From Candidatus Daviesbacteria bacterium (lineage in GTDB: Bacteria; Patescibacteriota; Microgenomatia; Daviesbacterales; UBA10151), in the NCBI GenBank assembly GCA_016176405.1, contig JACOXG010000027.1, positions 1 to 32,797 on the forward strand: a DNA stretch of 32,797 bases. The letters run 5' to 3'. Positions 6,240-30,062 of this stretch are shown in pieces. The notes beneath the pieces were generated by a model that was not told where the DNA came from, searched no databases, and was given only the letters and a program-made list of their open reading frames with translations. Every line of letters begins with the position of its first letter. Position 1 is the first letter of the stretch. Position numbers and translations under genes: made by a program.

Positions 6240-6278
6240 AGTGCTTTCTTTTGAAAGATAAAAAGCGGTCATGAAGTG

Positions 6279-6320
6279 TCCCCGCCAAAGGCGGGGGATC
6301 TTAAGAAAGAAAGGGGGTGA
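6279..6320 (+). promoter_or_regulatory. GC hairpin and strong Shine-Dalgarno before 6325
   Basis: CCCCGCC (6280-6286), AAA, GGCGGGG (6290-6296) forms a short hairpin. The Shine-Dalgarno AGGGGGTGA (6312-6320) follows, 4 nt before ATG 6325. The ribosome-binding site decides for start 6325 over the in-frame ATG at 6271. Confidence 0.6.
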
Positions 6321-6324
6321 AAAA

Positions 6325-7581
6325 ATGGAAATAAAAAGAAAAATTGCCGCAGCAGTGACAGCAGGTACTTTATTGTTTTCTTCATTTGCCCAAGTGGCAT
6401 TTGCAGGTACAACAATAGAAATTTCTGGTAATGGTACTAATTCTGATAATGATGCCACTATTACCACCACCAATACCACTACTGTGGTGCAAGATAATAA
6501 TGCCAATATAACAAACAAAGTTGATGTCGACGCAGATACTGGACACAACGATGCCAATGACAACACAGGTGGAGATGTTTCAATTAAGACCGGTGATGTT
6601 GATAGTGAGGTAACTGTTTCCAACACCCTCAATGTCAATTCAGCCAATGTTGATTGTTGCCCGGTAGGAGACACTGAAGTAACAATTTCTGGAAATGGAT
6701 CTAACTCAGATAACACTGCTACCTTAGATCAAACCAATAAAACAGAAGTTTACCAGGACAACAACGCCTATGTTTACAACAATGTTAAAGCTAATGGAAA
6801 CACAGGTGAAAACGATGCTGAAGACAATACCGGTGGAAGTGTCACAATAGAAACCGGTGATGTTGATACTAAGGTATCAGTCTCTACATCCGGAAATGTC
6901 AACTCCGCTCAAGTCGGAGATGGCAGTGGTGAAGGTTCCTCAGTCAGCGTATGGATCACTGATAATGGGACCAACTCTGATAATGATGTGGATCTTGATT
7001 TAAGTAACACCACATCTGTGGTTCAAGATAACAATGCCAACATCAAAAACAAGGTTGATGTCGACGCAGATACTGGACACAACGATGCCAATGACAACAC
7101 AGGTGGAGATGTATTAATTGACACTGGTGATGTTGACACTGAAGTGACTGTTGACAATATGGTCAACTTCAATGTGGCAGATGTAGACTGCCTCTGTCTC
7201 TTGTCAGATATTTTGGCAAAAATCTCTGGAAATGGTTCTGACTCTGATAATACTATCAAGGCAGAATTAGATGAGACTTTGGAAGTCTTCCAGGGTAACT
7301 GTGACGACGATGAAGGTTGGTACGGGAAATGTGCAACAGAGAATAATGTTGATGTTGATGGAGACACAGGTGAAAACGATGCTGAAGACAACACTGGTGA
7401 GCCAGAAGGGGATCCTTCTGTAGAAACCGGTGATGTTGATACAACCGTTGATCTTGAGAATTCAGGCAATGTCAACCTTTACGGTGACGAAGATCTAGGC
7501 TCTGATTTTGATTTTGACTTTGATCTAGATATTTCTCTGGATCTATCAGATCTATTAGATGCACTGCTAGATCTAGTTTAA
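6325..7581 (+). CDS. Secreted Asn/Asp/Gly-rich repeat surface protein A
   Basis: A signal peptide (MEIKRKIAAAVTAGTLLF.., probable cleavage after AFA) precedes four repeats of roughly 95 residues. Each opens with ISGNGSNSDN, continues through an N-rich DNNANI-type strand to TGxNDAxDNTGG, and closes with ETGDVDTxVxV...NVN. The pattern suggests a stacked beta structure. Repeat 1 ends in DCCP and repeat 3 in DCLC, while repeat 2 has no Cys. The C-terminus is an acidic (DF/DL)-rich tail ending SDLLDALLDLV, with no sorting signal or membrane segment, so attachment to the cell is unclear. The family is not known to me by name. A strong Shine-Dalgarno and a structured leader mark high, possibly regulated, expression. 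Confidence 0.85.
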   Translation: MEIKRKIAAAVTAGTLLFSSFAQVAFAGTTIEISGNGTNSDNDATITTTNTTTVVQDNNANITNKVDVDADTGHNDANDNTGGDVSIKTGDVDSEVTVSNTLNVNSANVDCCPVGDTEVTISGNGSNSDNTATLDQTNKTEVYQDNNAYVYNNVKANGNTGENDAEDNTGGSVTIETGDVDTKVSVSTSGNVNSAQVGDGSGEGSSVSVWITDNGTNSDNDVDLDLSNTTSVVQDNNANIKNKVDVDADTGHNDANDNTGGDVLIDTGDVDTEVTVDNMVNFNVADVDCLCLLSDILAKISGNGSDSDNTIKAELDETLEVFQGNCDDDEGWYGKCATENNVDVDGDTGENDAEDNTGEPEGDPSVETGDVDTTVDLENSGNVNLYGDEDLGSDFDFDFDLDISLDLSDLLDALLDLV

Positions 7582-7595
7582 TTTAATTTTGGGTT

Positions 7596-7636
7596 AGGGT
7601 GGTCAATATACTAGCACTTCGGTAAAAGACCACCCT
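7596..7636 (+). terminator. Hairpin between surface genes A and B
   Basis: AGGGTGGTC (7596-7604) pairs perfectly with GACCACCCT (7628-7636) around a 23-nt loop. No T-run follows, so it is a weak terminator at best. It may act as an mRNA stabiliser or processing site between genes A and B. The loop contains TATACT (7607-7612), which could be a promoter. Confidence 0.4.
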
Positions 7637-7678
7637 CCCAAAAGAAGTAAGAATTTAGAATTAAGAATTAAGGAAAAA

Positions 7679-9901
7679 ATGTTAGAAAAGTTTAGAAAAA
7701 TATTAACAATAATAACCATCATAGGATTACTCTTTTTAAGAGTAAGTCCTGCTTTGGCGCTAGAAGCACCTACTGCCCCCACCCCTCCTCCTGAACCTAC
7801 TCCACCTCCCACAGAGGTAGTTGTTTCCACCCCTCCTCCTGAACCTACTCCACCTCCTGAACCCACACTGGAAGATCCTGTTGTTAATAATGAAGACACA
7901 AATACTAATAATGATGAAACTGATGAAGATAATGAGGATGGTGATGGAGACGAGATGGATAATTCCATTTCTGCACCTCCTGGTTCATCTAATGACAACA
8001 GTTCTTCATCAGGTAATCAAACTGGCAATCAAACAGCTGATGGTCAGGTTGGGACTACCGTCATTGATACAGGTGATGCCACCAATAATGCCGGAGTGAC
8101 CACCATTGTCAATACCAATACTTCAGCTGGAATAGGGGGGACAGATACAGGTAGTATTTCAGTGATCAATTCTGACAATGGTTCAAATTCGCAAAATTCT
8201 GGCTCAGTGGAGTTTACTGATGATAATACTACCATTCAAAACAATAGCGCCACAGTCACCAATGATTTAAATCAAACCACCAATACTGGTGAAAACTCAG
8301 CTTCACAAAATGTGGGTGACTCAGAAATTAGCACAGGAGATGCCAATACTTCTGGAACTGTGGTAACCATAGTCAACACCAATATAGATGGATTGGGAAT
8401 TGCCGAATTTAGTGTGATTGATGATCATGTTGGAGATATTATCTTAGATTTTTCTGCAGGATGTGTTTATGGTTGTGAGGGGGATAGCTTATCTGCAACA
8501 AACAGTGACAACGGCACATCTTCTGATAATAACGCCTCAATTGATCAAGAAACCAACAATACCACCACCCAAACTAATGATGCAGTCATTGAAAGCAATC
8601 TCACCCTTTCATCCAATACTGGAGACAATAGCGCCGATCAAAACACCGGCGGTGATTCAACTATTAATACAGGGGATGCCAATGTGGCTGGTAATTCGGT
8701 CACACTAGCAAACAACAATATTGAGGGAGAAGTTTATATTACTTTTGTCTATATTTATGGAGATTTGGTAGGCGATATCATCTTACCTGATGACTATCTT
8801 TCAGATACTTCGTGCTCATCTTGTGGTAGTGACATTACGGCTGAAAATTCCTCTAATGGTTCAGGTTCAACCAATAATGCATCAGTTAATCAAGAAACCA
8901 ACAATACCATTATCCAATACAATGAGGTAGATATTGAAAATAATCTGATTTTAGAAGCCTCAACCGGTGATAACCAGACCAGCCAAAATACTGGTGGAGA
9001 CTCATCAATCTCAACAGGCGATACCAATGTTGAGGCCTCTGTCTTAAATGTTGCCAACACCAATACCTCAGGAGGGGATTGGTGGTTGGTATTGATCAAT
9101 GAGGCTGGAAATTGGGTTGGTCAGATTTTTGGAACAACTGACGGGGAAAATTACTCCGGATCAGAGGAGTGGGAGTTTTTGGTGGATGAAAATGGCGCAA
9201 TTACCGCTGTCAACTCCGGTAATGGCTCAGATTCTCAAAATAATGCCAATGTGTCAGAAACCACCAATAATACCACCACTCAAACCAATACAGCCACCAT
9301 TACCAATAATCTTGATTTATCTGCCAATACTGGAGGCAATTCTGCCAGTCAAAATACTGGTGGTGACTCGTCAATTGAGACAGGAGATGCCAATGTGATT
9401 GCTTCGATTATAAATTTGGTTAATAACAATATTACCGGTGGGGGGACCTTATTTGTGGTGGTGATAGATGTTTTTGGCTCCTGGGTGGGTAATTTTATTG
9501 GTCCAGGATATGAAAAAGAAGTGTTAACTGATTCTCAGAATCTGGATGAAACCACGAGTACAACTGATCCTCAAGGAGGTACAACTCCGCCGTCAGAAAG
9601 CTCTAATCAACAACAAACTACCACCACGAGCAGTAATAACAATGATGATGGAGAAGTTACGATTACCGTCTCATCAAACAGATCCTTAGGTAATATTTTA
9701 ACTGCTGGTTTGATCCAAGTGGCTGGATTTTCTCAGACAGAAAATCCCCCAAGTGCCAATGTTTTGTCTGATATGACCCAGATGAGTGTGGGAAGCAAAA
9801 AAACCATCAAGATTAATCTGGCCTGGTTAATTTTGGCAGTGCCATTTGTCCCGTTGATTTTTGTGATTAGAAGAAAGCTTCGCAAGTTTCAAACTGCCTA
9901 A
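7679..9901 (+). CDS. Large anchored Asn/Thr/Gly-rich repeat surface protein B
   Basis: The 740-residue product has a signal peptide (to about residue 28), a Pro-rich stalk (PTPPPEPTPPP repeated) and an acidic DTNTNNDETDEDNEDGDGDE segment. About five copies follow of the same repeat as its neighbours (NSDNGSNSQN .. TNTGENSASQN .. STGDANTSG). Repeats are separated by hydrophobic inserts with a recurring VG(D/Q/N)(I/F)I pattern (such as YGDLVGDIIL and FGSWVGNFIG), which the other family members lack. Two inserts carry Cys pairs (GCVYGC, CSSC). The C-terminus is a membrane segment (AWLILAVPFVPLIFV) followed by RRKLRKFQ, a stop-transfer anchor without an LPxTG motif. AAGGA 4 nt upstream serves as ribosome-binding site. 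Confidence 0.85.
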   Translation: MLEKFRKILTIITIIGLLFLRVSPALALEAPTAPTPPPEPTPPPTEVVVSTPPPEPTPPPEPTLEDPVVNNEDTNTNNDETDEDNEDGDGDEMDNSISAPPGSSNDNSSSSGNQTGNQTADGQVGTTVIDTGDATNNAGVTTIVNTNTSAGIGGTDTGSISVINSDNGSNSQNSGSVEFTDDNTTIQNNSATVTNDLNQTTNTGENSASQNVGDSEISTGDANTSGTVVTIVNTNIDGLGIAEFSVIDDHVGDIILDFSAGCVYGCEGDSLSATNSDNGTSSDNNASIDQETNNTTTQTNDAVIESNLTLSSNTGDNSADQNTGGDSTINTGDANVAGNSVTLANNNIEGEVYITFVYIYGDLVGDIILPDDYLSDTSCSSCGSDITAENSSNGSGSTNNASVNQETNNTIIQYNEVDIENNLILEASTGDNQTSQNTGGDSSISTGDTNVEASVLNVANTNTSGGDWWLVLINEAGNWVGQIFGTTDGENYSGSEEWEFLVDENGAITAVNSGNGSDSQNNANVSETTNNTTTQTNTATITNNLDLSANTGGNSASQNTGGDSSIETGDANVIASIINLVNNNITGGGTLFVVVIDVFGSWVGNFIGPGYEKEVLTDSQNLDETTSTTDPQGGTTPPSESSNQQQTTTTSSNNNDDGEVTITVSSNRSLGNILTAGLIQVAGFSQTENPPSANVLSDMTQMSVGSKKTIKINLAWLILAVPFVPLIFVIRRKLRKFQTA
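7780..7857. repeat. 30-bp direct repeat encoding the Pro stalk
   Basis: Two identical 30-bp units (7780-7809 and 7828-7857) encode TPPPEPTPPP-type sequence. Identity at DNA level points to recent duplication or slippage, so stalk length may vary between strains. Confidence 0.7.
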
Positions 9902-9943
9902 AGATCTGCCTCAAATAGCTGTCCGCAAAATATAGAAGAAATC

Positions 9944-11092
9944 ATGAAAGTCTTTATTTTTACATTGATATTGATTCTATTCGTACTAGCTCAGCCAAGC
10001 TATGCTGATGAATTGGTGATTTCTGGTAATGGCTCAGATTCCGAAAGCCAAATCTCCATCACTTCCACTTCAGAGACTAATGTGACTCAAACTAATGAGG
10101 CCAATATAGACAATAATGTTAATTTAGATGCCAATACCGGAGGAAATAGCGCCTCAGGTAATAATGGAGACGTAGAAATTACCACCGGTGATATTAACAG
10201 CCAAACCACCATTGAAAATAGTGCCAATACTTCTAATGTCTCATTAAGTTGTTGTCCTGATTCAAATCTGACTGTAGAGATTTCTGGTAATGGAGAAGAT
10301 TCCCAAAATAGTGTGGATTTGGATCAAACTTCAGATACTCAAATTAATGTTAATCAATCAGCCAATATCAAAAATAGTATTAATGGTAGTGCTAATACTG
10401 GTGGAAACAGCGCCAATGATAATAGCGGGGGAAATGTGTCTATCACAACTGGCAATATTAATGTGACAGATGAGATAAGAAATGAAAATATTAATCTGAC
10501 TAAAATTTCAGCACCCCAGGGAGATGGTAGTATTACTATCAAAATTTGGGGTAATGGATCTGATTCTCAAAATGCTGTCATTGTTAATTGGGATAATAAT
10601 TTAAATATTGATGTTAATAATAATGCGGATATTTTTAATAGTTTAGTTTGGTATTTGAATACTGGAGAAAATTCAGCTTCAGGTAATAACGGTGATGTGT
10701 CTATCTCAACCGGTGATATTAATTATTATGCCGAAATTATTAATGGGCCGATCAATCTAGTCGATATTGATATTCCTTGTTGTGTTGAAGATGGTGGCGG
10801 TCCGGGAGATGGAGATGGTGATGAAAATGAAGACGGAGATGGTGACGGTGATGGGGGTGGGGATGGGGATAATCCTCCGCCACCGAGCTCTCCGTCAAAT
10901 CCACCAAGCAATGGTGGAGGTGGGAATGGAGGTCAAGCTCAAGGAGCAGCTATAGCAGCGGTAGGACAAATCTTACCAGCCACAGGTAGTCTTTGGTTAA
11001 TTTTATTAACTTTGATAGCCATGTTAATGTTTATTTTGGGACTCTATCTGCGTCTACACCCTGGTCGTGACCCCAACCTCAAGATGAGGTAA
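9944..11092 (+). CDS. Repeat surface protein C with LPATG sortase sorting signal
   Basis: The 382-residue product has a signal peptide (cleavage near SYA/DE) and three repeats of the ISGNGSDSES .. ANTGGNSASGNNGDVEITTGD type. A Gly/Asp-rich then Pro/Ser/Gly-rich linker leads to a classical cell-wall sorting signal: LPATG (residues 344-348), a hydrophobic stretch (SLWLILLTLIAMLMFILGLYL) and a basic tail. Repeats 1 and 3 end in Cys pairs (SCCPD, PCCVED); repeat 2 does not. The next gene is a sortase, so this protein is its likely substrate, linked to a cell-wall or surface acceptor. The stop codon TAA is part of the TAAAAT box for that sortase. Confidence 0.88.
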   Translation: MKVFIFTLILILFVLAQPSYADELVISGNGSDSESQISITSTSETNVTQTNEANIDNNVNLDANTGGNSASGNNGDVEITTGDINSQTTIENSANTSNVSLSCCPDSNLTVEISGNGEDSQNSVDLDQTSDTQINVNQSANIKNSINGSANTGGNSANDNSGGNVSITTGNINVTDEIRNENINLTKISAPQGDGSITIKIWGNGSDSQNAVIVNWDNNLNIDVNNNADIFNSLVWYLNTGENSASGNNGDVSISTGDINYYAEIINGPINLVDIDIPCCVEDGGGPGDGDGDENEDGDGDGDGGGDGDNPPPPSSPSNPPSNGGGGNGGQAQGAAIAAVGQILPATGSLWLILLTLIAMLMFILGLYLRLHPGRDPNLKMR

Positions 11093-11095
11093 AAT
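11090..11095 (+). promoter_or_regulatory. -10 box (TAAAAT) overlapping the stop of gene C, for the sortase
   Basis: TAAAAT begins with the TAA stop of the LPATG gene and ends 7 nt before ATG 11103. This suggests a leaderless sortase transcript in addition to any read-through. Confidence 0.4.
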
Positions 11096-11102
11096 TCTCC
11101 TG

Positions 11103-11612
11103 ATGAGAAGGCAACTAAGTAGTTTGTTAATAATTTCTTCGCTAATACTACTCATTTTTATTTATCTGCCATTTTTAAGCGCATATTTTCCCAGCCAAAT
11201 CAACATTCCCAAAAACAGCGATTATATTGAAATTCCCAAAATTGGGGCTAAGGCGCTGATTATAGATAATGTGGATCCTTGGAATCGAGGAGAGTATGAA
11301 AAAGCCTTGGAAAAGGGAGTGGCCAAAGCTAAAGGCTTTGATAATTTTTTCTTTGCTCATTCATCTCTACCGCCTTGGAAAATGACCAGGACCAATACTG
11401 CCTTTTTAAGATTGGGAGAGCTTAAAATAGGGGATCAAATTATTATTCATCAAGATGGCACTGATTTTATCCATCAGGTAATAGATAAAAAAGAGGTTTG
11501 GCCAAATGAGGTAGATAAACTTATCACCGATCAAGATGTACTAATCCTGCAAACTTGTACCCCTTTGGGTACAGATTTTAAAAGATTGCTAATTTTCGCC
11601 AAGCCTACTTGA
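11103..11612 (+). CDS. Sortase (membrane-anchored transpeptidase)
   Basis: The 169-residue protein has an N-terminal membrane segment (residues about 7-29) and a sortase domain. That domain opens with IEIPKIGAKALI and has a catalytic His86 (FFFAHSS), Cys152 (LILQTCTP, the TLxTC-type motif) and Arg161 (FKRLLIFA), all in the expected order and spacing. Sortases cut LPxTG-type signals after Thr and join the protein to an amine acceptor. The gene lies 10 bp after an LPATG protein, so that is the obvious substrate. Length and single N-terminal anchor resemble class D/E or CPR sortases; the exact class is unsure. A stem-loop with T-tract follows. Confidence 0.9.
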   Translation: MRRQLSSLLIISSLILLIFIYLPFLSAYFPSQINIPKNSDYIEIPKIGAKALIIDNVDPWNRGEYEKALEKGVAKAKGFDNFFFAHSSLPPWKMTRTNTAFLRLGELKIGDQIIIHQDGTDFIHQVIDKKEVWPNEVDKLITDQDVLILQTCTPLGTDFKRLLIFAKPT

Positions 11613-11656
11613 TGAGGATCACCCTGGGACCTAAAGCTCAGGGTGATCCTCATTTT
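11612..11656 (+). terminator. Strong terminator between sortase and convergent gene D
   Basis: ATGAGGATCACCCTG (11612-11626) pairs perfectly over 15 bp with CAGGGTGATCCTCAT (11639-11653), followed by a short T-run (11653-11656). It closes the sortase operon. On the minus strand no T-run follows the stem, so it mainly serves plus-strand transcripts. Confidence 0.75.
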
Positions 11657-11665
11657 AAAAAGTGT

Positions 11666-12274
11666 TTATGGACTGAGCGTATTGACTCCTCCAGTTACAC
11701 TCACATCAACTGTGGTCTCGGCATTACCTGTGTCAATGGTGGTTGTACCACCAGTATTATTTCTGGCTCTATTTTTACCAGTTTTAGAGCGGGCAGAAAG
11801 GACTGATGTGGCATTGGTATCAGCCTTCTGCTTGATCTTAGAACTTTTATTTTTACTAACCACGATGGTGTTATTAGAATTGGCACCATTTTCAGAAATA
11901 GAGGCAGAAGTGGAAGCCTCGTCGCACTCACTCTCACAGCAACAAGGATTGGTGGCTGTATTTGATCCACCGGTCACACTGACAGTGACTGTGGTAGTGG
12001 CATCACCAGTATTGATTGAGACATCTCCTCCGGTATTGCCTGAGGCAGTATTCCCTCCGGTTGAGGAGGAAGCTGAGACAACGGTTGTGGCATTGGTATT
12101 ACTTTGTTGGTCAACTTCACAATTATTATTGGAGCTAACTGAAATGGTATTGTCTGAATTAACACCATTTCCGGAAATTTCCAAAGTTGTATCAGCAGAT
12201 GCCACTCCTGTTGCGAGCAGGGTAACTAAGGTAGCTGCTGCCAAAGCTGAAGCAGCTCGATATGCAATTGTCAT
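11666..12274 (-). CDS. Small secreted repeat surface protein D
   Basis: The 202-residue product has a signal peptide (MTIAYRAASALAAATLVTLL.., cleavage near ASA) and two repeats of the same kind as genes A-C (LEISGNGVNSDN .. SSTGGNTASGNTGGDVSINTGDA). Repeat 1 ends in NPCCCESECDE and repeat 2 has no Cys, matching the alternation in A and C. There is no sorting signal or anchor. The second repeat is Lys/Arg-rich (KNKSSKIKQKAD, RSKTGKNRARN), unlike the acidic relatives, so charge pairing with them is conceivable. The Shine-Dalgarno GGAGGAGGTG (12292-12283) is very strong. A long opposite frame overlaps but is a shadow. Confidence 0.85.
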   Translation of the reverse strand: MTIAYRAASALAAATLVTLLATGVASADTTLEISGNGVNSDNTISVSSNNNCEVDQQSNTNATTVVSASSSTGGNTASGNTGGDVSINTGDATTTVTVSVTGGSNTATNPCCCESECDEASTSASISENGANSNNTIVVSKNKSSKIKQKADTNATSVLSARSKTGKNRARNNTGGTTTIDTGNAETTVDVSVTGGVNTLSP

Positions 12275-22909: not shown

Positions 22910-23661
22910 GTTATGGTCTGTAGTGTTCCACTACTTTTTTGGCCACATCTATTCTTTTTTCAGAACACTCACTATCATATTGAGGAGAGACAAAGATCAC
23001 TATAGCATCTGGAGAGTTGGCTGAACCGTCGGCAATTGAATCAATGTATTTGATGACAGACTCTGCGCTGGTGCAGCGGTTAGGAGGTGGATTAACAGAA
23101 ACTTGAACCCGAACTTTCTGTTGGCCAATATATGGTCTAATTTTTCCAATTAGATCTTTAACAGTGGAGGCATACTCATCCACACTTAGGGAATCCTGAT
23201 ACCTTTGAGTTTGATAGGCAATAATATCTGCATTTCTCACTAAGGCATAATCAGAATATGCATATTTATCCTCAAGTTGTCTACCAGTGGGTCCAAAGGT
23301 AAAAGTTAAGCCGCGATCTTTAGCCATCTGATATTGTTCTTTTTGCTCAGAGATCACATAATCAATGTCATTGTCCTCAATATTGGAGGTAACTGTCCAA
23401 CCATTGGTCTTGGCAGTATCCATACTTTTGGTGGGATTATTAGGATCTATGAATAAAACTCTAGTTCCCTTAGCAGAACTGGCAGAATTAAGAATAGAGG
23501 TGTTTCCCAAGACTAAATCAGTATCTTTGGCTCTCTCATTCCACCAAGATATATTAGATGAATCAACAGCCATACCAATGGCAGCTGGACCCCTGACGGA
23601 AGGAGCTGGTGTGGGGGTAGGGGTGGGGGTGGGAGCCGGAGTTGGGGTGGGTGGGGGTTTG

Positions 23662-23760
23662 GGAGGTCTTCTCCACCAGGGAGGAATAATTCTTCTGGCA
23701 GCTTCAGAGATTGGTTTGGGAAAAAGTTGAGAGAAGATATTATCTTTAAAGTCAAATAAG
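23662..23760. repeat. 99-bp block identical to 25714-25812
   Basis: Positions 23662-23760 and 25714-25812 are identical base for base, while the flanking coding sequence of paralogues 1 and 3 is clearly diverged. This points to recent gene conversion or recombination. Confidence 0.85.
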
Positions 23761-23768
23761 CAAATAAG
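23753..23768. repeat. 8-bp tandem duplication causing the frameshift
   Basis: CAAATAAG occurs twice in tandem (23753-23760, 23761-23768). Its first copy is the last 8 bp of a 99-bp block identical to paralogue 3. Confidence 0.85.
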
Positions 23769-23871
23769 CCTGAGGCCAAAAGAAATAGGATAATTCCCAC
23801 TGCGGCAATAATAATTAAAGGTGATAACTGGAATATTCCTTTTTGATTATGCATTTTAGAGAGTTTAAAAA

Positions 23872-24846
23872 CTAACGGTAATGATCAACCACTTGTTTCA
23901 TCACATCAACTCTTTTTTCAGAGCATTGAGAGTCATATTCAGAAGAGACAAAGATATTAAGGGCATCAGGAGAGTTGGCAGAGCCATCAAAGATAGAGTC
24001 AATATATTGAATGACTTTTTCTGCTGTGGTACAACGATTAGCTGGAGGATTAACTGAAACTTGGACCCAGACTTGTTTTTTAACAAGATATGGTCTAATT
24101 TTCCCAATCAGATCTTTGACATAGGTAGCATAATCTGAGACAGAAAAACCTGAGTAATCTTGCCGGCGTTGGGTTTGATAGATCATAATGTCTGCATTTC
24201 TAAGTAAGGCATAATCTTGATCTGCATAATCATCCTCCAGCATTCTGCCTGTTGGTCCAAAGATAAAAGTTAAACCGCGATCTTTGGCCATTTGGTAGTG
24301 TTCTTTTTCTTTAGATAAAACATAGTTTAAATCTGGATCTTCAACATTTGTGGTGACCAACCAACCATTGGCTTTGGCTTCATCCATACCAGATACTGGA
24401 TTATCAGGATTAGCAAATAATACCCTGACTCCTTTAGCAGAGCTTAAAGTTTTAAGTGCGCCGGAAGATCCTAAGACTAAATCAGATGAGAGAGCCTTAG
24501 TATTCCACCAGTCTACGTTAGTAGACGAACCAAGACCTGGACCAATAGGGAAGGTACCAGTACTTGGAGGGGCTGTGGGACCAGGAGTAGATGTTGGGAC
24601 GGGAGCGGGAGTTGGGGTAGGAGTTGGTGATGGAGGAGGTCTCCAACGCCGCCACCAAGGATGAATAATTCTTCTGGCTGCTTCAGAGACTTCTTTGGGG
24701 AATATTTTAGCAAATACACTATCTTTAAAATCTCCTGAGGCAGCCAGTAGGATAAAGGCAATCACACCTACTGCGGCAATCAGTATGAGGGGTGATAAAT
24801 GAACTAATCCTTTTTGTCCCAACGAAGTTGGGTTATTTTTCTTCAT
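23872..24846 (-). CDS. Secreted tandem paralogue 2, intact
   Basis: The 324-residue product starts MKKNNPTSLGQKGLVHLSPL with a hydrophobic segment (LILIAAVGVIAFILLAASG), then FKDSVFAKIFPKEVSEAARR and a basic WWRRWRPPPSP stretch. A Pro/Thr linker leads to a ~210-residue domain opening VDWWNTKALSSDLVLG. Recurrent motifs are NVEDPDLNYVL, HYQMAKDRGLTFIFGPTGR, LLRNADIMIYQTQRRQD and VWVQVSVNPPANRCTTAEK. The alternation of strands and helices suggests a TIM-barrel-like, perhaps glycoside-hydrolase-like, fold, but no catalytic pair can be named. The two Cys (NRCT, SQCSEKR) could form a disulphide outside the cell. Confidence 0.75.
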   Translation of the reverse strand: MKKNNPTSLGQKGLVHLSPLILIAAVGVIAFILLAASGDFKDSVFAKIFPKEVSEAARRIIHPWWRRWRPPPSPTPTPTPAPVPTSTPGPTAPPSTGTFPIGPGLGSSTNVDWWNTKALSSDLVLGSSGALKTLSSAKGVRVLFANPDNPVSGMDEAKANGWLVTTNVEDPDLNYVLSKEKEHYQMAKDRGLTFIFGPTGRMLEDDYADQDYALLRNADIMIYQTQRRQDYSGFSVSDYATYVKDLIGKIRPYLVKKQVWVQVSVNPPANRCTTAEKVIQYIDSIFDGSANSPDALNIFVSSEYDSQCSEKRVDVMKQVVDHYR

Positions 24847-24851
24847 ATAAA

Positions 24852-25826
24852 CTAACGGTAATGATCAACCACTTGTTTCATCACATCAACTCTAGTTGGT
24901 TGTCCTTTGGAGACACAATTACCGTCACCTTTTCTATCTACTCCACTATCATATTGAGAAGAGACAAAAATGACTATGGTATCAGCATAAGGCTGTGATC
25001 CGCTGACAATAGAATCAATATACTTGATCACTTGATCAGCAGTGGTGCATCTGTTGGCTGGTGGATTGGCTGAAAGTTGAACCCAGACCTTTTGTTGTCC
25101 AATATATGGCTTAATTTTTGATATTAAATCTTTAACTTTAGAAGCAAATGTAGAAGCATATTTGGAGGAATCTGAGGTTCCCAGCTCTGTTGAGTTATCC
25201 TGAAAATGTTGGGCTTGATAGGCAATAATATCTGCATTTCTAACTAAGGCATGATCTTGACCTTGATAAGTATAATCCCATTCATCTTCAAGCTGAATGC
25301 CTGTTGGACCATTGACGAATGTAAGTCCCCGATCTTTGGCCATCTGATATTGTTCTTTTATTCCTATGACAGTATTACCATCCCTGTCAACCCCTCCTCC
25401 AATCACCAGATCAATATTTGGATCTTCAATATTGGCAGTCACATAGCTCCAACCTTTAGATTTGGCAGTATCCATATCAGAGGAGGGATTAGTGGGAGAA
25501 ATCAGCATGACTCTCCCTCCTTTGGCAGAAGAGACAGAACTTAGAGTATAGGAAACTCCTATCACAATATCAGAAGATTGGGCTTTAGAATTCCACCAAT
25601 CTAAGTTGCTTGAATCAACACCTATCACAAGAGGAAATTGGCCTGAGACAGGAGTTGGGGTGGGAGTAGGTGTAGCAGTAGGAGCTGGAGTTGGGCTAGG
25701 TTTAGGACTGGGTGGAGGTCTTCTCCACCAGGGAGGAATAATTCTTCTGGCAGCTTCAGAGATTGGTTTGGGAAAAAGTTGAGAGAAGATATTATCTTTA
25801 AAGTCAAATAAGAGAACATAAAACAA
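24852..25826 (-). CDS. Secreted tandem paralogue 3, N-terminally shortened
   Basis: This has the same domain plan as paralogue 2 (FKDNIFSQLFPKPISEAARR, WWRRPP, PTPTPTP linker, domain opening VDSSNLDWWNSKAQSSDIVI). It has longer loops, including GGGVDRDGNTVIG and STELGTSDSSKYAS, and a lengthened C-terminal Cys loop (GVDRKGDGNCVSKGQ). The QKG-membrane N-terminus of its paralogues is missing. The frame begins at a TTG (25826) with only a few hydrophobic residues (MFYVLLFDF), so export is doubtful. Homology to paralogue 1 stops exactly at CTTATTTG. It is 15 bp after DUF5654 and 5 bp before paralogue 2. Confidence 0.65.
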   Translation of the reverse strand: MFYVLLFDFKDNIFSQLFPKPISEAARRIIPPWWRRPPPSPKPSPTPAPTATPTPTPTPVSGQFPLVIGVDSSNLDWWNSKAQSSDIVIGVSYTLSSVSSAKGGRVMLISPTNPSSDMDTAKSKGWSYVTANIEDPNIDLVIGGGVDRDGNTVIGIKEQYQMAKDRGLTFVNGPTGIQLEDEWDYTYQGQDHALVRNADIIAYQAQHFQDNSTELGTSDSSKYASTFASKVKDLISKIKPYIGQQKVWVQLSANPPANRCTTADQVIKYIDSIVSGSQPYADTIVIFVSSQYDSGVDRKGDGNCVSKGQPTRVDVMKQVVDHYR

Positions 25827-26304: not shown

Positions 26305-27927
26305 ATGCAAAAGAAAGAATATGTCAAGGTAGCCTCATACGAAGCTAAAAAGGGCGAAGTTAAAAAGGTGGTGCTACTTTACTCAGGGGGATTAGATACC
26401 TCGGTGATGATCAAATGGATTCAGCAGGAATATGATGCTTCTGTCATAGCCTTAACCATTGATATTGGCCAGCAGGCAGATGATCTGGAAGTAATCAGAA
26501 AAAAGGCCTTAAAATTGGGGGCCATTAAAGCCATAGTGGTAGATGCTAAGGATGAGTTTGCCATGGAATATATTGCTAAAGGAATTAAAGCCAATGCCAA
26601 CTATCAACAAGGATATAGGTTGGCCACAGCCATTGGCAGACCACTTCTTGCCAAATGGGCAGTTAAGCTGGCTATGGAAGAGGGAGCAGATTGTATTGCG
26701 CACGGTTGTACTGGTAAAGGTAATGACCAAGTCAGAATTGAAGGTACAGCACTGGCTCTCAATCCAGATATTAAAATTATAGCTCCAGTTAGAGAGTGGT
26801 CTATGGGTAGAGATGAGGAGATTGAATATGCCAGAAAACACCACATTCCTGTTATTACTACCAAAGAAAAACCATACTCTTATGATGATAATATGTGGGG
26901 AGTTTCTGGAGAGGGGGGAGAAATAGAAGATCCGTCTTTAATTCCACCCTTAGAAAAAATCTTACAAGTTTGCACTTTACCTGAAAATTCTCCTGAAGAA
27001 GGGGAATATTTGGAGGTTGAGTTTGTCAAAGGTTTACCTGTTGCCTTAAATGGTAAACAGATGAAGTTATCAGATCTAATTATGAAACTTAATCAGATTG
27101 GAGCAAAACATGGTGTGGGGATTAATATCCACATTGAAGATAGAGTAGTGGGTCTTAAGATTAGAGATGTTTTTGAAGCCCCGGCAGCAGAAATTATTGT
27201 CAGTGCCCACAAAAGTTTGGAATATTATGTTTGTACCAGACTAGAAAATGAATTTAAGAGTGAGGTAGATACTAAATGGGCATATCTTTGTTACGGTGGG
27301 TTGTGGTATGAACCTTTGATGGATGATATAAATGCCTACATTGATAATGTTAATAGAAAAGTCACCGGCAAGGTTACTCTAAAGCTCTACAAAGGGGTGG
27401 CAACAGTAGTAGCTTTGGAAACTCCCAATACCATTTTTGAGGAGAAACTGGCCACCTTTATGGCCTCTGATGCTTTCAACCAAAATGCCGCAGCCTCCTT
27501 CATTGAACTTTATACCCTGCAAATGAGGCTGGCTCAAAGATCTGAGAGGACTGTGCTTTTATCAATTGGTCAAATCGCCAACAAGAAAAAGCTACTTCCA
27601 TCTGTCAAGCTTTTATACAAAGATGGTTATAAACTCTATGCCACTGAAAAAACTCATCAGTTTTTAAAAGGTCACAAAATTCCCTCCATTTTGGTCTATA
27701 AAATTTCCCAACCGGATCAAATACCAAATCTAAAAGATATGCTGGAAGTCAAAAGGTTTGATTTTATCATCAATATTCCCGGTGCACCCAACGGTAATCA
27801 AAAAGAAAAAACTGATGGTCAAGTTATTCGGGAAATGGCTGTTTCCACCAATACTCATCTGATTACCTCAGTGTCTGTGGCCCAAGATTTTGTGGAGAAA
27901 TTACATAAAGAACATTTTAGAGCTTGA
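26305..27927 (+). CDS. argG: Argininosuccinate synthase fused to an MGS-like domain
   Basis: The 540-residue protein has an argininosuccinate synthase at residues 1-415. The ATP-binding SGGLDTS is at 27-33; AHGCTGKGNDQVR and GVSGEGGEIEDPSLIPP are also present. This joins citrulline and aspartate using ATP. Normal synthases are about 400-450 residues. Residues about 418-530 add an MGS-like domain like the regulatory C-terminus of carbamoyl-phosphate synthase large chains: LLSIGQIANKKKLLPSVKLL, GYKLYATEKTHQFLK, FDFIINIPG, TDGQVIREMAV. In carbamoyl-phosphate synthase this domain binds ornithine and nucleotides, so allosteric control is the natural inference. GGAGG lies 6 nt before ATG, after an attenuator-like leader. 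Confidence 0.9.
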   Translation: MQKKEYVKVASYEAKKGEVKKVVLLYSGGLDTSVMIKWIQQEYDASVIALTIDIGQQADDLEVIRKKALKLGAIKAIVVDAKDEFAMEYIAKGIKANANYQQGYRLATAIGRPLLAKWAVKLAMEEGADCIAHGCTGKGNDQVRIEGTALALNPDIKIIAPVREWSMGRDEEIEYARKHHIPVITTKEKPYSYDDNMWGVSGEGGEIEDPSLIPPLEKILQVCTLPENSPEEGEYLEVEFVKGLPVALNGKQMKLSDLIMKLNQIGAKHGVGINIHIEDRVVGLKIRDVFEAPAAEIIVSAHKSLEYYVCTRLENEFKSEVDTKWAYLCYGGLWYEPLMDDINAYIDNVNRKVTGKVTLKLYKGVATVVALETPNTIFEEKLATFMASDAFNQNAAASFIELYTLQMRLAQRSERTVLLSIGQIANKKKLLPSVKLLYKDGYKLYATEKTHQFLKGHKIPSILVYKISQPDQIPNLKDMLEVKRFDFIINIPGAPNGNQKEKTDGQVIREMAVSTNTHLITSVSVAQDFVEKLHKEHFRA

Positions 27928-27938
27928 GTGGTTGAGTT

Positions 27939-28754
27939 ATGAAAAATAGGATAGTATTGGAAGTATTGATGTGTCGCCCCACCTACTATTCCATTTCCTA
28001 TACTATTAATCCCTGGATGATTCCCGGTTCAGAAAATAAAAATATGGCGCAAATCCAATGGGAAAATTTGGTGGCCACATATCGCAGTTTAGGAATTAAA
28101 GTCAACTTTTTGGATCAGCAACAGGGTTTGCCAGATATGGTTTTTTCAACAGATGAGGGGATAGTCTTTAAAAAAAAGGTGGTGGTGTCTAATTTTAGAT
28201 ATCCCCAAAGGAGAAGGGAGAGAAGTCCGTATTTGGAGTGGTTTGAGAAACATGGGTTTAAACCCACTTTTTTGCCAAAAGGCATATTTTTTGAAGGCAG
28301 TGGGGACTGCCTTTTTTTTAACCATTTGGCTTTTGTAGGAACCGGCTTTAGAACTTCTAAAAAAGCTGCTGAATTTTTATCTGCCAAATTAGATATCGAA
28401 GTTTTTCCACTTCAATTAATTAATCCTTACTTTTTTCATCTAGATACAGCTTGCTTCCCTCTAAATAGTGAGACCGCTTTTTATTATCCAGAGGCTTTTG
28501 ATGAAAAATCCCAAAAAATTTTAAAAAAAGTGGTGCCAAATTTGATTGCCTTAACTGCCTTTGAAGCCAGGAACTTTGCTGCCAACTCAGTGGTGACAGA
28601 TCATCAGGTGATTATCAATAGAAATTTGCCCACCTTTGCCAATACCTTAGCTAAGTTGGGATACTTGCCAATTGAAGTTGATTTAAATGAGTTTAAAAAG
28701 GCTGGTGGCGCAGCCCATTGTTTAACTAATGTATTGAAAGAAGTGGAGAAATAA
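27939..28754 (+). CDS. Guanidino-group hydrolase (DDAH/arginine deiminase-like)
   Basis: This 271-residue member of the amidinotransferase/DDAH superfamily attacks guanidino carbons through a Cys. Landmarks are CRPTYYSISYTINPWM, GLPDMVFSTDEGIVF, FEGSGDCLFF (Glu119, Asp123), YFFHLDTACFPL (His167, Asp169) and GGAAHCLTN (Cys261), so the catalytic set is complete. Superfamily members make citrulline from arginine or methylarginine, or ornithine from arginine. Being 11 bp after argG, whose substrate is citrulline, this one may feed or recycle that pathway. Exact substrate is not readable from sequence. Confidence 0.85.
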   Translation: MKNRIVLEVLMCRPTYYSISYTINPWMIPGSENKNMAQIQWENLVATYRSLGIKVNFLDQQQGLPDMVFSTDEGIVFKKKVVVSNFRYPQRRRERSPYLEWFEKHGFKPTFLPKGIFFEGSGDCLFFNHLAFVGTGFRTSKKAAEFLSAKLDIEVFPLQLINPYFFHLDTACFPLNSETAFYYPEAFDEKSQKILKKVVPNLIALTAFEARNFAANSVVTDHQVIINRNLPTFANTLAKLGYLPIEVDLNEFKKAGGAAHCLTNVLKEVEK

Positions 28755-28757
28755 GAA

Positions 28758-29114
28758 ATGGGCGCAGAAATGAAAGTAGAAGGTGGTTGGTTATTACGTC
28801 GTGGTGGATTTGGATTACAGGAGAATATTCCCCACGATGGGATCATCATTCCATCAGGAGAAGCTGTTAATGCTGGTCCTGTGCGTGGCTTTGAATTTTG
28901 TGTGATCTCATATCCTTCCCATACGGAGGTAGTACGTTCTCTCGGACGCTTACGTTATAGAGTTGAGTGCACTGGAGATGTTAAAAGAAAAAGGGTACGA
29001 CGAGGAAAAATAGTAATGTATACGTTAAATGGATCAGATACTGTTCTTCAAATTAAAAGAGGGAGGGGAAGGTTAATGGTTACTAACTTACCAGAGGAGC
29101 TAGTTGATTCCTAA
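28758..29114 (+). CDS. Hypothetical protein (118 aa), third gene after argG
   Basis: I do not recognise this protein. It is 118 residues, soluble and beta-rich in appearance (EGGWLLRRGGFGLQ, VRGFEFCVISYPSHTEVVRS, YRVECTGDVKRKRVRRGKIV, GRLMVTNLPEEL). It starts 3 bp after the hydrolase gene, so it is probably in the argG operon. Seven of its 13 arginines use CGN codons while neighbours use almost only AGA/AGG, a sign of different origin. The 3' end overlaps the convergent amidohydrolase by 15 bp. Confidence 0.6.
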   Translation: MGAEMKVEGGWLLRRGGFGLQENIPHDGIIIPSGEAVNAGPVRGFEFCVISYPSHTEVVRSLGRLRYRVECTGDVKRKRVRRGKIVMYTLNGSDTVLQIKRGRGRLMVTNLPEELVDS

Positions 29115-30062
29115 GACTTCTCTGCCATTAACTGTGGCAATTTTAACTAATTCATCAATATCATAAAGTCTATTCATTTCCATTAAAGCTCTTAAATCAT
29201 TCCATAAAATTCCATCATTGTAAGGCATCATTAAATCAGCAATATTATCTGTACCCAAAGCTACTAAGATTCCATAAGGTAATAACTCATCAACCGGGGT
29301 TGAAGGATTATGAATGGGTGAGGGTTCCTCACTTCTTCTTGAGTTAATCCAGGACATAGGACAAGCAATCATCATAAGTTTTGCTTTTTTCATTAGTTTG
29401 TAAAGCTCTTCACGATATTTTTTAGGATGGGCATTTATAGAAATACCATGTATCCCCACAACTTTACCCTCCATTTTATATTCAATAGTTTTTTTAGCTA
29501 AAAGTTCTGTCTCAAACTCACCAGGCAAATTTAACTCATCTACATGAATATGAACCATTTTCTTTTTATCTTTGGCAGTCTGAAGAATTATTTCTAGATG
29601 TTCGACTTCTCTTCCTTGATCAGTTTTCATATTACTTCCTATAATATCTGCAAACTCGGCTCCGACTTCAAACCAAAATCTTGATTCTTTTGGGAGGATT
29701 CCATAACTTGGTAGATTAATAAATTTAAAAGTAATTGATGATTTATATCTATCTTTTAATTTTTGAGCAGCCTTAATTGCTTTATCTTTTGTATCTGGAT
29801 CAACATCAATAAAAGTACCAATTGCCGAAACACCCTGAGCAATCATCAGTTCTGTGGCTTTAGCCATCCGATCATAAATTTGGGCAATAGTGGAATTTCT
29901 TCTAACGCCTGAATTCAATTTCCACTTCTCGTGCCGGTAAGCATTAGCTAGCTTGTATAACTTTTCATCAACTGTGTATGCTCTATCAAGATGGGCATGC
30001 GTGTTAACCCAACCCCCATTAGTTTTAATTTTGTCTAAAATTATTTGTTTAGGATCAAACAT
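29100..30062 (-). CDS. Amidohydrolase, cytosine-deaminase-like
   Basis: This is a 320-residue metal-dependent amidohydrolase. The metal ligands are recognisable as THAHLDR (His22, His24), HIHVDE (His173 with the catalytic-type Glu176), GIHG (His205) and LGTDN (Asp272). The HxxE pattern in strand 5 is that of cytosine deaminase and related deaminases that release ammonia from cyclic amidines. The substrate is unknown; next to guanidino enzymes a nitrogen-salvage role is plausible but only contextual. It has no signal peptide and starts 12 bp from the divergent DedA gene. Confidence 0.82.
   Translation of the reverse strand: MFDPKQIILDKIKTNGGWVNTHAHLDRAYTVDEKLYKLANAYRHEKWKLNSGVRRNSTIAQIYDRMAKATELMIAQGVSAIGTFIDVDPDTKDKAIKAAQKLKDRYKSSITFKFINLPSYGILPKESRFWFEVGAEFADIIGSNMKTDQGREVEHLEIILQTAKDKKKMVHIHVDELNLPGEFETELLAKKTIEYKMEGKVVGIHGISINAHPKKYREELYKLMKKAKLMMIACPMSWINSRRSEEPSPIHNPSTPVDELLPYGILVALGTDNIADLMMPYNDGILWNDLRALMEMNRLYDIDELVKIATVNGREVLGIN

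Follow-up and report, generated by a model that had tools for sequence, protein, structure and literature searches.

To our knowledge, the textbook account has de novo UMP synthesis begin with carbamoyl phosphate everywhere. In Thermococcus kodakarensis and other Thermococcales that lack carbamoyl-phosphate synthase (CPS), the carbamoyl phosphate for pyrimidines is derived from arginine, in T. kodakarensis through the arginine synthetase ArcE together with ArcB (PMC13260591). The system described here, encoded in a stretch of 32,797 nucleotides (the window) from the tiny genome of a Candidatus Daviesbacteria bacterium and in other genomes, resembles that route in being CPS-less and in its proposed use of arginine or citrulline as the carbamoyl source for UMP. 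However, T. kodakarensis forms carbamoyl phosphate via OTCase for use by ATCase, whereas none of these appears to be needed here.

At the center of the system is an argininosuccinate synthase (ArgG) that carries a C-terminal MGS domain (ArgG-MGS). It shares with ordinary ArgG both domains, the catalytic motifs, the ATP, aspartate and citrulline residues and the fold, but differs in its extra domain, its pyrimidine-gene partners and the frequent absence of the lyase. The MGS domain of CarB is likewise C-terminal, with the same fold and nucleotide-site residues, and regulation of the pyrimidine entry step would be common to both; here, however, the domain sits on an unrelated synthetase and is without the ornithine half-site. 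The amidohydrolase PRK06886 has the mononuclear metal-site pattern of AtzC and cytosine deaminase, but constitutes a separate family, and is proposed to act on argininosuccinate or a cyclic form of it. A guanidine-modifying hydrolase (27939-28754) shares the fold family, the catalytic Cys/His and the Glu of ArgZ/AgrE and dimethylargininase, but falls below both equivalog cut-offs, has Asp in place of ArgZ Asn71 and lacks the ornithine cyclodeaminase domain.

No prior report of ArgG-MGS, of ATCase-MGS or of an argininosuccinate route to UMP was found in the open-access literature, subscription journals and preprints being outside the scope of the search. The reading favored here, with moderate confidence, gives ArgG-MGS the committed step, under nucleotide control, in a variant route of de novo pyrimidine synthesis that does without CPS, ATCase and the classical dihydroorotase. 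If so, the orotate pathway would have a second biological opening, without carbamoyl phosphate, and such a CPS- and ATCase-independent opening would explain pyrimidine synthesis in some Patescibacteria and a proteobacterium in which the pathway seems broken. Functions would also follow for the PRK06886 family and the linked guanidine hydrolase, and the regulatory domain would be seen to track control of the pathway from one enzyme to another.

The ArgG-MGS Fusion Protein

The argG-MGS gene lies on the forward strand at 26305-27927, a single frame that begins with ATG, is open throughout and encodes 540 amino acids. A first-pass annotation, made from the sequence alone, had read residues 1-415 as a complete ArgG and residues ~418-530 as MGS-like, and domain searches, a structural model and a fold search bear out both assignments. 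The ArgG part extends over residues ~20-412, with the N-terminal HUP (ATP-binding) domain at residues 21-182 (26365-26850; PF00764, Arginosuc_synth, 223 bits) and the C-terminal domain at residues 191-409 (26875-27531; PF20979, Arginosuc_syn_C, 216 bits), and the protein scores 510 bits against NF001770 (ArgG), for which the cut-off is 334. The CPS-type MGS part extends over residues ~414-535, of which residues 430-521 (27592-27867) are matched by PF02142. PF02142 (cut-off 24) gave 49 bits with the whole protein and 53 bits (E=4e-14) in a search of the tail alone, as the annotation had suggested, and the MGS motifs that it quoted are present in the ORF. Searched against NCBIfam and the PDB, the tail came closest to CPS large subunits. 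CPS models matched and no MgsA model did, so a methylglyoxal synthase role for the tail was rejected.

Structural modeling, likewise suggested in the annotation, recovered the folds of both parts. An AlphaFold2 model built from 69 sequences, used in place of one built from 9 sequences only (pLDDT 59), reached a mean pLDDT of 92.8. Foldseek matched its first 400 residues to ArgG (4xfj, target TM 0.94) and its tail to the MGS domain of human CPS (2yvq, target TM 0.74, E=1e-6).

A survey for the same architecture revealed the uninterrupted frame, with the same junction, in 9 of 138 relatives and in 10 of 380 genomes sampled from the phylum as a whole (4 of these common to the set of relatives). 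With named records from Roizmanbacteria, Magasanikbacteria and one 'Proteobacteria' MAG, the total is about 18 genomes, window genome included. Because the same fusion recurs at the same junction in these genomes, it is no artefact: a merge of two genes near residue 415 by sequencing error, against which the annotation had warned, or in a chimeric MAG, is refuted and retains a negligible probability. The fusion is real and old. A further candidate, in G065, was rejected as a contig-edge piece of CarB.

Catalytic and Regulatory Sites

The residues of the ArgG substrate sites, and their roles, are those that we take from ArgG structures, in T. thermophilus numbering. In the alignment, the ATP and aspartate residues and most of the citrulline residues are kept in ArgG-MGS, as in the plain ArgGs of the phylum. 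Within the aspartate/citrulline site, Y84, N120, D121, R124, S172 and E257 are conserved, S181 is Ser or Thr, S89 is changed as it is in the ordinary ArgGs of the phylum, and Tyr269 is replaced by Phe in the window copy only. Lost citrulline binding or a new substrate (Ser89 to Ala and Tyr269 to Phe in the window) was considered and rejected, since relatives keep Tyr269 and ordinary ArgGs share the Ser89 change. The ArgG part is complete and apparently competent.

In the MGS domain, window residues T447, T450, K466 and N490 correspond, in alignments and the model, to T974, T977, K993 and N1015 of E. coli CPS, and the matching residues are kept in all ArgG-MGS rows. In CPS, T974 and N1015 are placed around the phosphate of the nucleotide-regulatory site. 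T977 and K993 are needed for inhibition by UMP and its binding, and ornithine binds CPS where the MGS domain meets the carbamoyl-phosphate domain (PMC6245113). The latter domain is absent from ArgG-MGS, and the CPS ornithine half-site was not found there; Ile or Val replaces CPS Asp1041, the neighbor of the ornithine-contacting Thr1042, in most alignment rows. Because of these two differences, the ornithine sensing that the annotation had carried over from CPS is unlikely. Judged by residue conservation, the part of the CPS regulatory domain that is kept is the UMP/IMP nucleotide site, and UMP would be expected to bind there. The MGS domain probably gives ArgG-MGS allosteric control.

Pyrimidine Operons and Partner Proteins

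In relatives, argG-MGS was observed in operons with pyrimidine genes. Overlapping genes run argG-MGS, PRK06886, pyrD, pyrE and pyrF in G072; argG-MGS, PRK06886 and pyrD are followed by pyrE and pyrF in G105; G051 has argG-MGS, PRK06886 and pyrD, and the 'Proteobacteria' MAG (locus L072, 9854-14523; genome G489) has argG-MGS, PRK06886, pyrD and pyrE. The order is PRK06886, argG-MGS and pyrD in G150, PRK06886, argG-MGS, an aspartase-like gene, pyrD and a pyrE/F fusion in G389, and PRK06886, argH, argG-MGS, pyrD, pyrK, pyrE and pyrF in Magasanikbacteria (L073). In G276, argG-MGS, the hydrolase gene and PRK06886 stand in this order beside pyrD and pyrF, while G192 groups PRK06886, argG-MGS, an AsnRS-like-MGS gene, pyrD and pyrK. 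Classical pyrimidine genes stand next to argG-MGS in G339, with no PRK06886 seen at that locus.

PRK06886 is present in 7 of 9 ArgG-MGS genomes among the relatives versus 2 of 129 others (p=8e-9, shared ancestry ignored), and in the two without it (G053 and G113) an 8-oxoguanine-deaminase-like amidohydrolase adjoins argG-MGS. PyrD was likewise matched in 7 of the 9, with no match in G053 and G113; in the window genome (G000), a PyrD-like protein is encoded on contig C11 beside PyrF. The loci of G113 and G053 (L035:2778-7103 and L037:9223-11813) also encode a Cys-rich, possibly radical-SAM-like protein with no Pfam match, and PRTase-like genes come next in G113. This arrangement is possibly a further variant.

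Within the window, the guanidine-modifying hydrolase, by profile matches a relative of arginine dihydrolase and dimethylargininase, lies 11 bp downstream of argG-MGS on the same strand. An ORF of 118 aa (28758-29114, forward strand), 3 bp past the hydrolase, matched no family above cut-off, and its membership in the system is uncertain. PRK06886 (NF005365, 410 bits against a cut-off of 340), a cytosine-deaminase/AtzC-like amidohydrolase, is encoded on the reverse strand at 29100-30062 and is convergent to argG-MGS, not co-directional.

The guanidine hydrolase adjoins argG-MGS in five genomes (window, G113, G276, G156 and G339); the window protein scores 219 bits against an ArgZ equivalog cut-off of 450. 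In ArgZ, Asn71 governs the second hydrolysis. At the alignment position that we take to be this site, the hydrolases linked to argG-MGS have Asp, four unlinked homologues have Asn and one PDB variant sequence has Ser. Because of the Asp replacement, the linked hydrolases may stop at citrulline, and the window protein is proposed to be an arginine deiminase yielding citrulline. A citrulline source was not found in G050, G051, G053, G072 and G105.

The metal site of PRK06886 is kept, its HxH, H173, H205 and D272 being invariant in the alignment, and the catalytic Glu of cytosine deaminase is Gln in most rows. Among solved structures, PRK06886 is closest to AtzC, an enzyme that frees isopropylamine (an alkylamine) from a ring carbon; cytosine deaminase comes second. 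A tblastn search of PRK06886 against plasmids gave no match.

Gene Absences

Neither the CPS large subunit (PF02787) nor the classical dihydroorotase PyrC (TIGR00857) was found in any of the 9 ArgG-MGS relatives, window genome included, and the ATCase/OTCase fold (PF02729), absent from the window genome, was found in one of them (G051); the absences rest partly on incomplete MAGs, the window genome being 94% complete, and the same searches matched in 14 of 14 cases in control genomes. CPS was present in 8 of 11 relatives with ordinary ArgG (p=0.0014 versus ArgG-MGS, shared ancestry ignored). Among 9 further ArgG-MGS genomes, it was absent from 7 and present in G339 and the proteobacterial G489. 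At a separate locus, in G042 (L051:1944-8175), carA-carB have PRK06886 as a neighbor at the place that pyrB and pyrC occupy in close relatives; this genome, 83% complete, yielded no PyrC and no second OTCase/ATCase-fold gene as PyrB.

No ArgH above cut-off was detected in 5 of the 9 relatives (window genome, G051, G053, G072 and G105), the best match in the window genome being a weak lyase-superfamily hit of 56 bits against a cut-off of 279.5, and G050 and G113 have a second, plain ArgG (no MGS) beside ArgH. From the ArgH absences and the separate ArgG/ArgH pairs, it was concluded that pyrimidine synthesis, not arginine synthesis, is the common denominator of ArgG-MGS genomes. Participation of ArgG-MGS in pyrimidine synthesis is strongly supported.

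A Proposed Route to UMP and Its Alternatives

A more specific proposal, for which belief and doubt are about equal, is that the carbamoyl group of citrulline is passed to aspartate via argininosuccinate, that the AtzC-like amidohydrolase frees ornithine to leave dihydroorotate, and that the CPS regulatory domain is a portable pyrimidine feedback module, carried also by ATCase and an AsnRS-like protein. We infer the reactions as follows. The guanidine hydrolase encoded next to argG-MGS would turn arginine, probably scavenged, into citrulline; alternatively, the cell would import citrulline. ArgG-MGS would combine citrulline and aspartate at the expense of ATP to form argininosuccinate, in which the guanidino carbon would already carry pyrimidine C2, N3 and the aspartate N. 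Argininosuccinate is well known to form cyclic anhydrides. Their routine measurement has been mentioned (PMC11016166). A six-membered cyclic form would amount to dihydroorotate bearing an ornithyl-amino substituent at C2, from which PRK06886 would hydrolyze ornithine to give dihydroorotate, the substrate of PyrD; in a linear version, N-carbamoyl-aspartate and ornithine would be formed first. PyrD, PyrE and PyrF would then complete UMP, which would bind the MGS domain and inhibit ArgG-MGS, as with CPS. The net effect would be an ATP-driven movement of the carbamoyl group of citrulline to aspartate. Such a route would account for a gene set that goes from ArgG-MGS and PRK06886 directly to PyrD. 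Several observations speak against it: CPS in G339 and G489, argH at the fused gene in L073, G122 and G131, five genomes with no citrulline source found, two with no PyrD match, the convergent PRK06886 of the window and the Gln in most PRK06886 rows.

The same operon and absence data would be accommodated if ArgG-MGS made N-carbamoyl-aspartate directly, from carbamate or urea and not citrulline, and PRK06886 were a non-homologous dihydroorotase, an idea with which the position of PRK06886 beside carAB in G042, where PyrC was not found, is in line. This is unlikely, as the citrulline-site residues are largely kept, five genomes have a deiminase-type hydrolase gene next to argG-MGS, PRK06886 looks like deaminases and AtzC rather than dihydroorotases, and the second OTCase/ATCase-fold gene that could serve as PyrB is missing from G042.

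The first-pass annotation had instead placed ArgG-MGS in arginine biosynthesis, with the citrulline-consuming step under allosteric control by nucleotides or ornithine. The intact ArgG site agrees with this, as does argH in or near the argG-MGS operon in L073, G122 and G131, where argininosuccinate could go to arginine. Nevertheless, arginine synthesis as the controlled pathway is improbable given the lack of ArgH in five genomes, that of the window included, the separate plain ArgG and ArgH in two, operons that continue into pyrD, pyrE and pyrF, and the missing ornithine half-site; what survives of the claim is the probable allosteric control of a complete ArgG by a CPS-type regulatory domain. 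Still harder to credit is that ArgG-MGS serves citrulline/arginine cycling for energy or nitrogen, its proximity to pyr genes being due to chance and the MGS domain being a general nucleotide sensor: an arginine-deiminase-type gene does adjoin argG-MGS and some genomes have ArgH, but one and the same set of pyr genes, with the same amidohydrolase, is found again in families far apart and in a proteobacterium. The pyrimidine route through argininosuccinate is preferred.

Evolution and Other Carriers of the MGS Domain

The ArgG tree unites 17 ArgG-MGS proteins in a single clade (SH-aLRT 98, by a quick method with no bootstrap), and the ArgG domain of G105 falls among plain ArgGs, so that the fusion label needs two changes on this tree and MGS is found on ArgGs from two separate lineages. 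In the MGS tree, the domains carried by ArgG, by ATCase and by the AsnRS-like protein are separated from those of CPS (85/95), the G105 domain pairs with that of ArgG-MGS from G053, and the domain of the G192 AsnRS-like protein joins that of the neighboring ArgG (98/92). The module appears to have been handed between pyrimidine enzymes. Within the ArgG tree, the ArgG-MGS of the proteobacterial MAG branches from inside the Patescibacteria, which suggests horizontal transfer of the L072 operon.

An ATCase with a C-terminal MGS domain occurs in one Patescibacteria family (G155, G174 and G191; L181:5862-7181, L182:7120-8457 and L183:2220-3530), among pyr genes and in genomes that also have CPS. 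The idea that loss of CPS is a precondition for movement of the MGS domain was rejected, since these genomes, G339 and the genome of L072 have CPS. In G155, genes for carbamate kinase and for an OTCase with an N-terminal extension lie near ATCase-MGS; a fusion of arginine deiminase to the L181 OTCase was rejected, as its N-terminal part matched no family.

Proteins that join an AsnRS catalytic-domain-like part to MGS occur in further pyr operons (L032:5903-7405, L033:2633-4099, L031:10180-11598, L034:6911-8398 and L177:10471-11970). Because G097 and G091 encode such a protein with no matches to CPS, the OTCase/ATCase fold, PyrC or ArgG-MGS, it may be yet another pyrimidine entry enzyme. An MGS-less AsnRS-like protein is encoded in a classical pyr operon (L186:6397-8922).

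Other Observations

A distant ArgG-like subfamily (L022-L027, 33-38% identity), found in several Patescibacteria genomes beside long OTCase-like genes and ArgH, perhaps belongs to an acetylated arginine route. Elsewhere in the window, genes for large secreted proteins of repetitive sequence (NTGxN/xTGD repeats) cluster at positions 6271-12274 on both strands, together with a sortase-like ORF (11103-11612) and an ORF ending in an LPATG-like tail (9944-11092). Three tandem paralogues (VDSSNxxWWN proteins), apparently duplicated recently, occupy 22911-25826 on the reverse strand.
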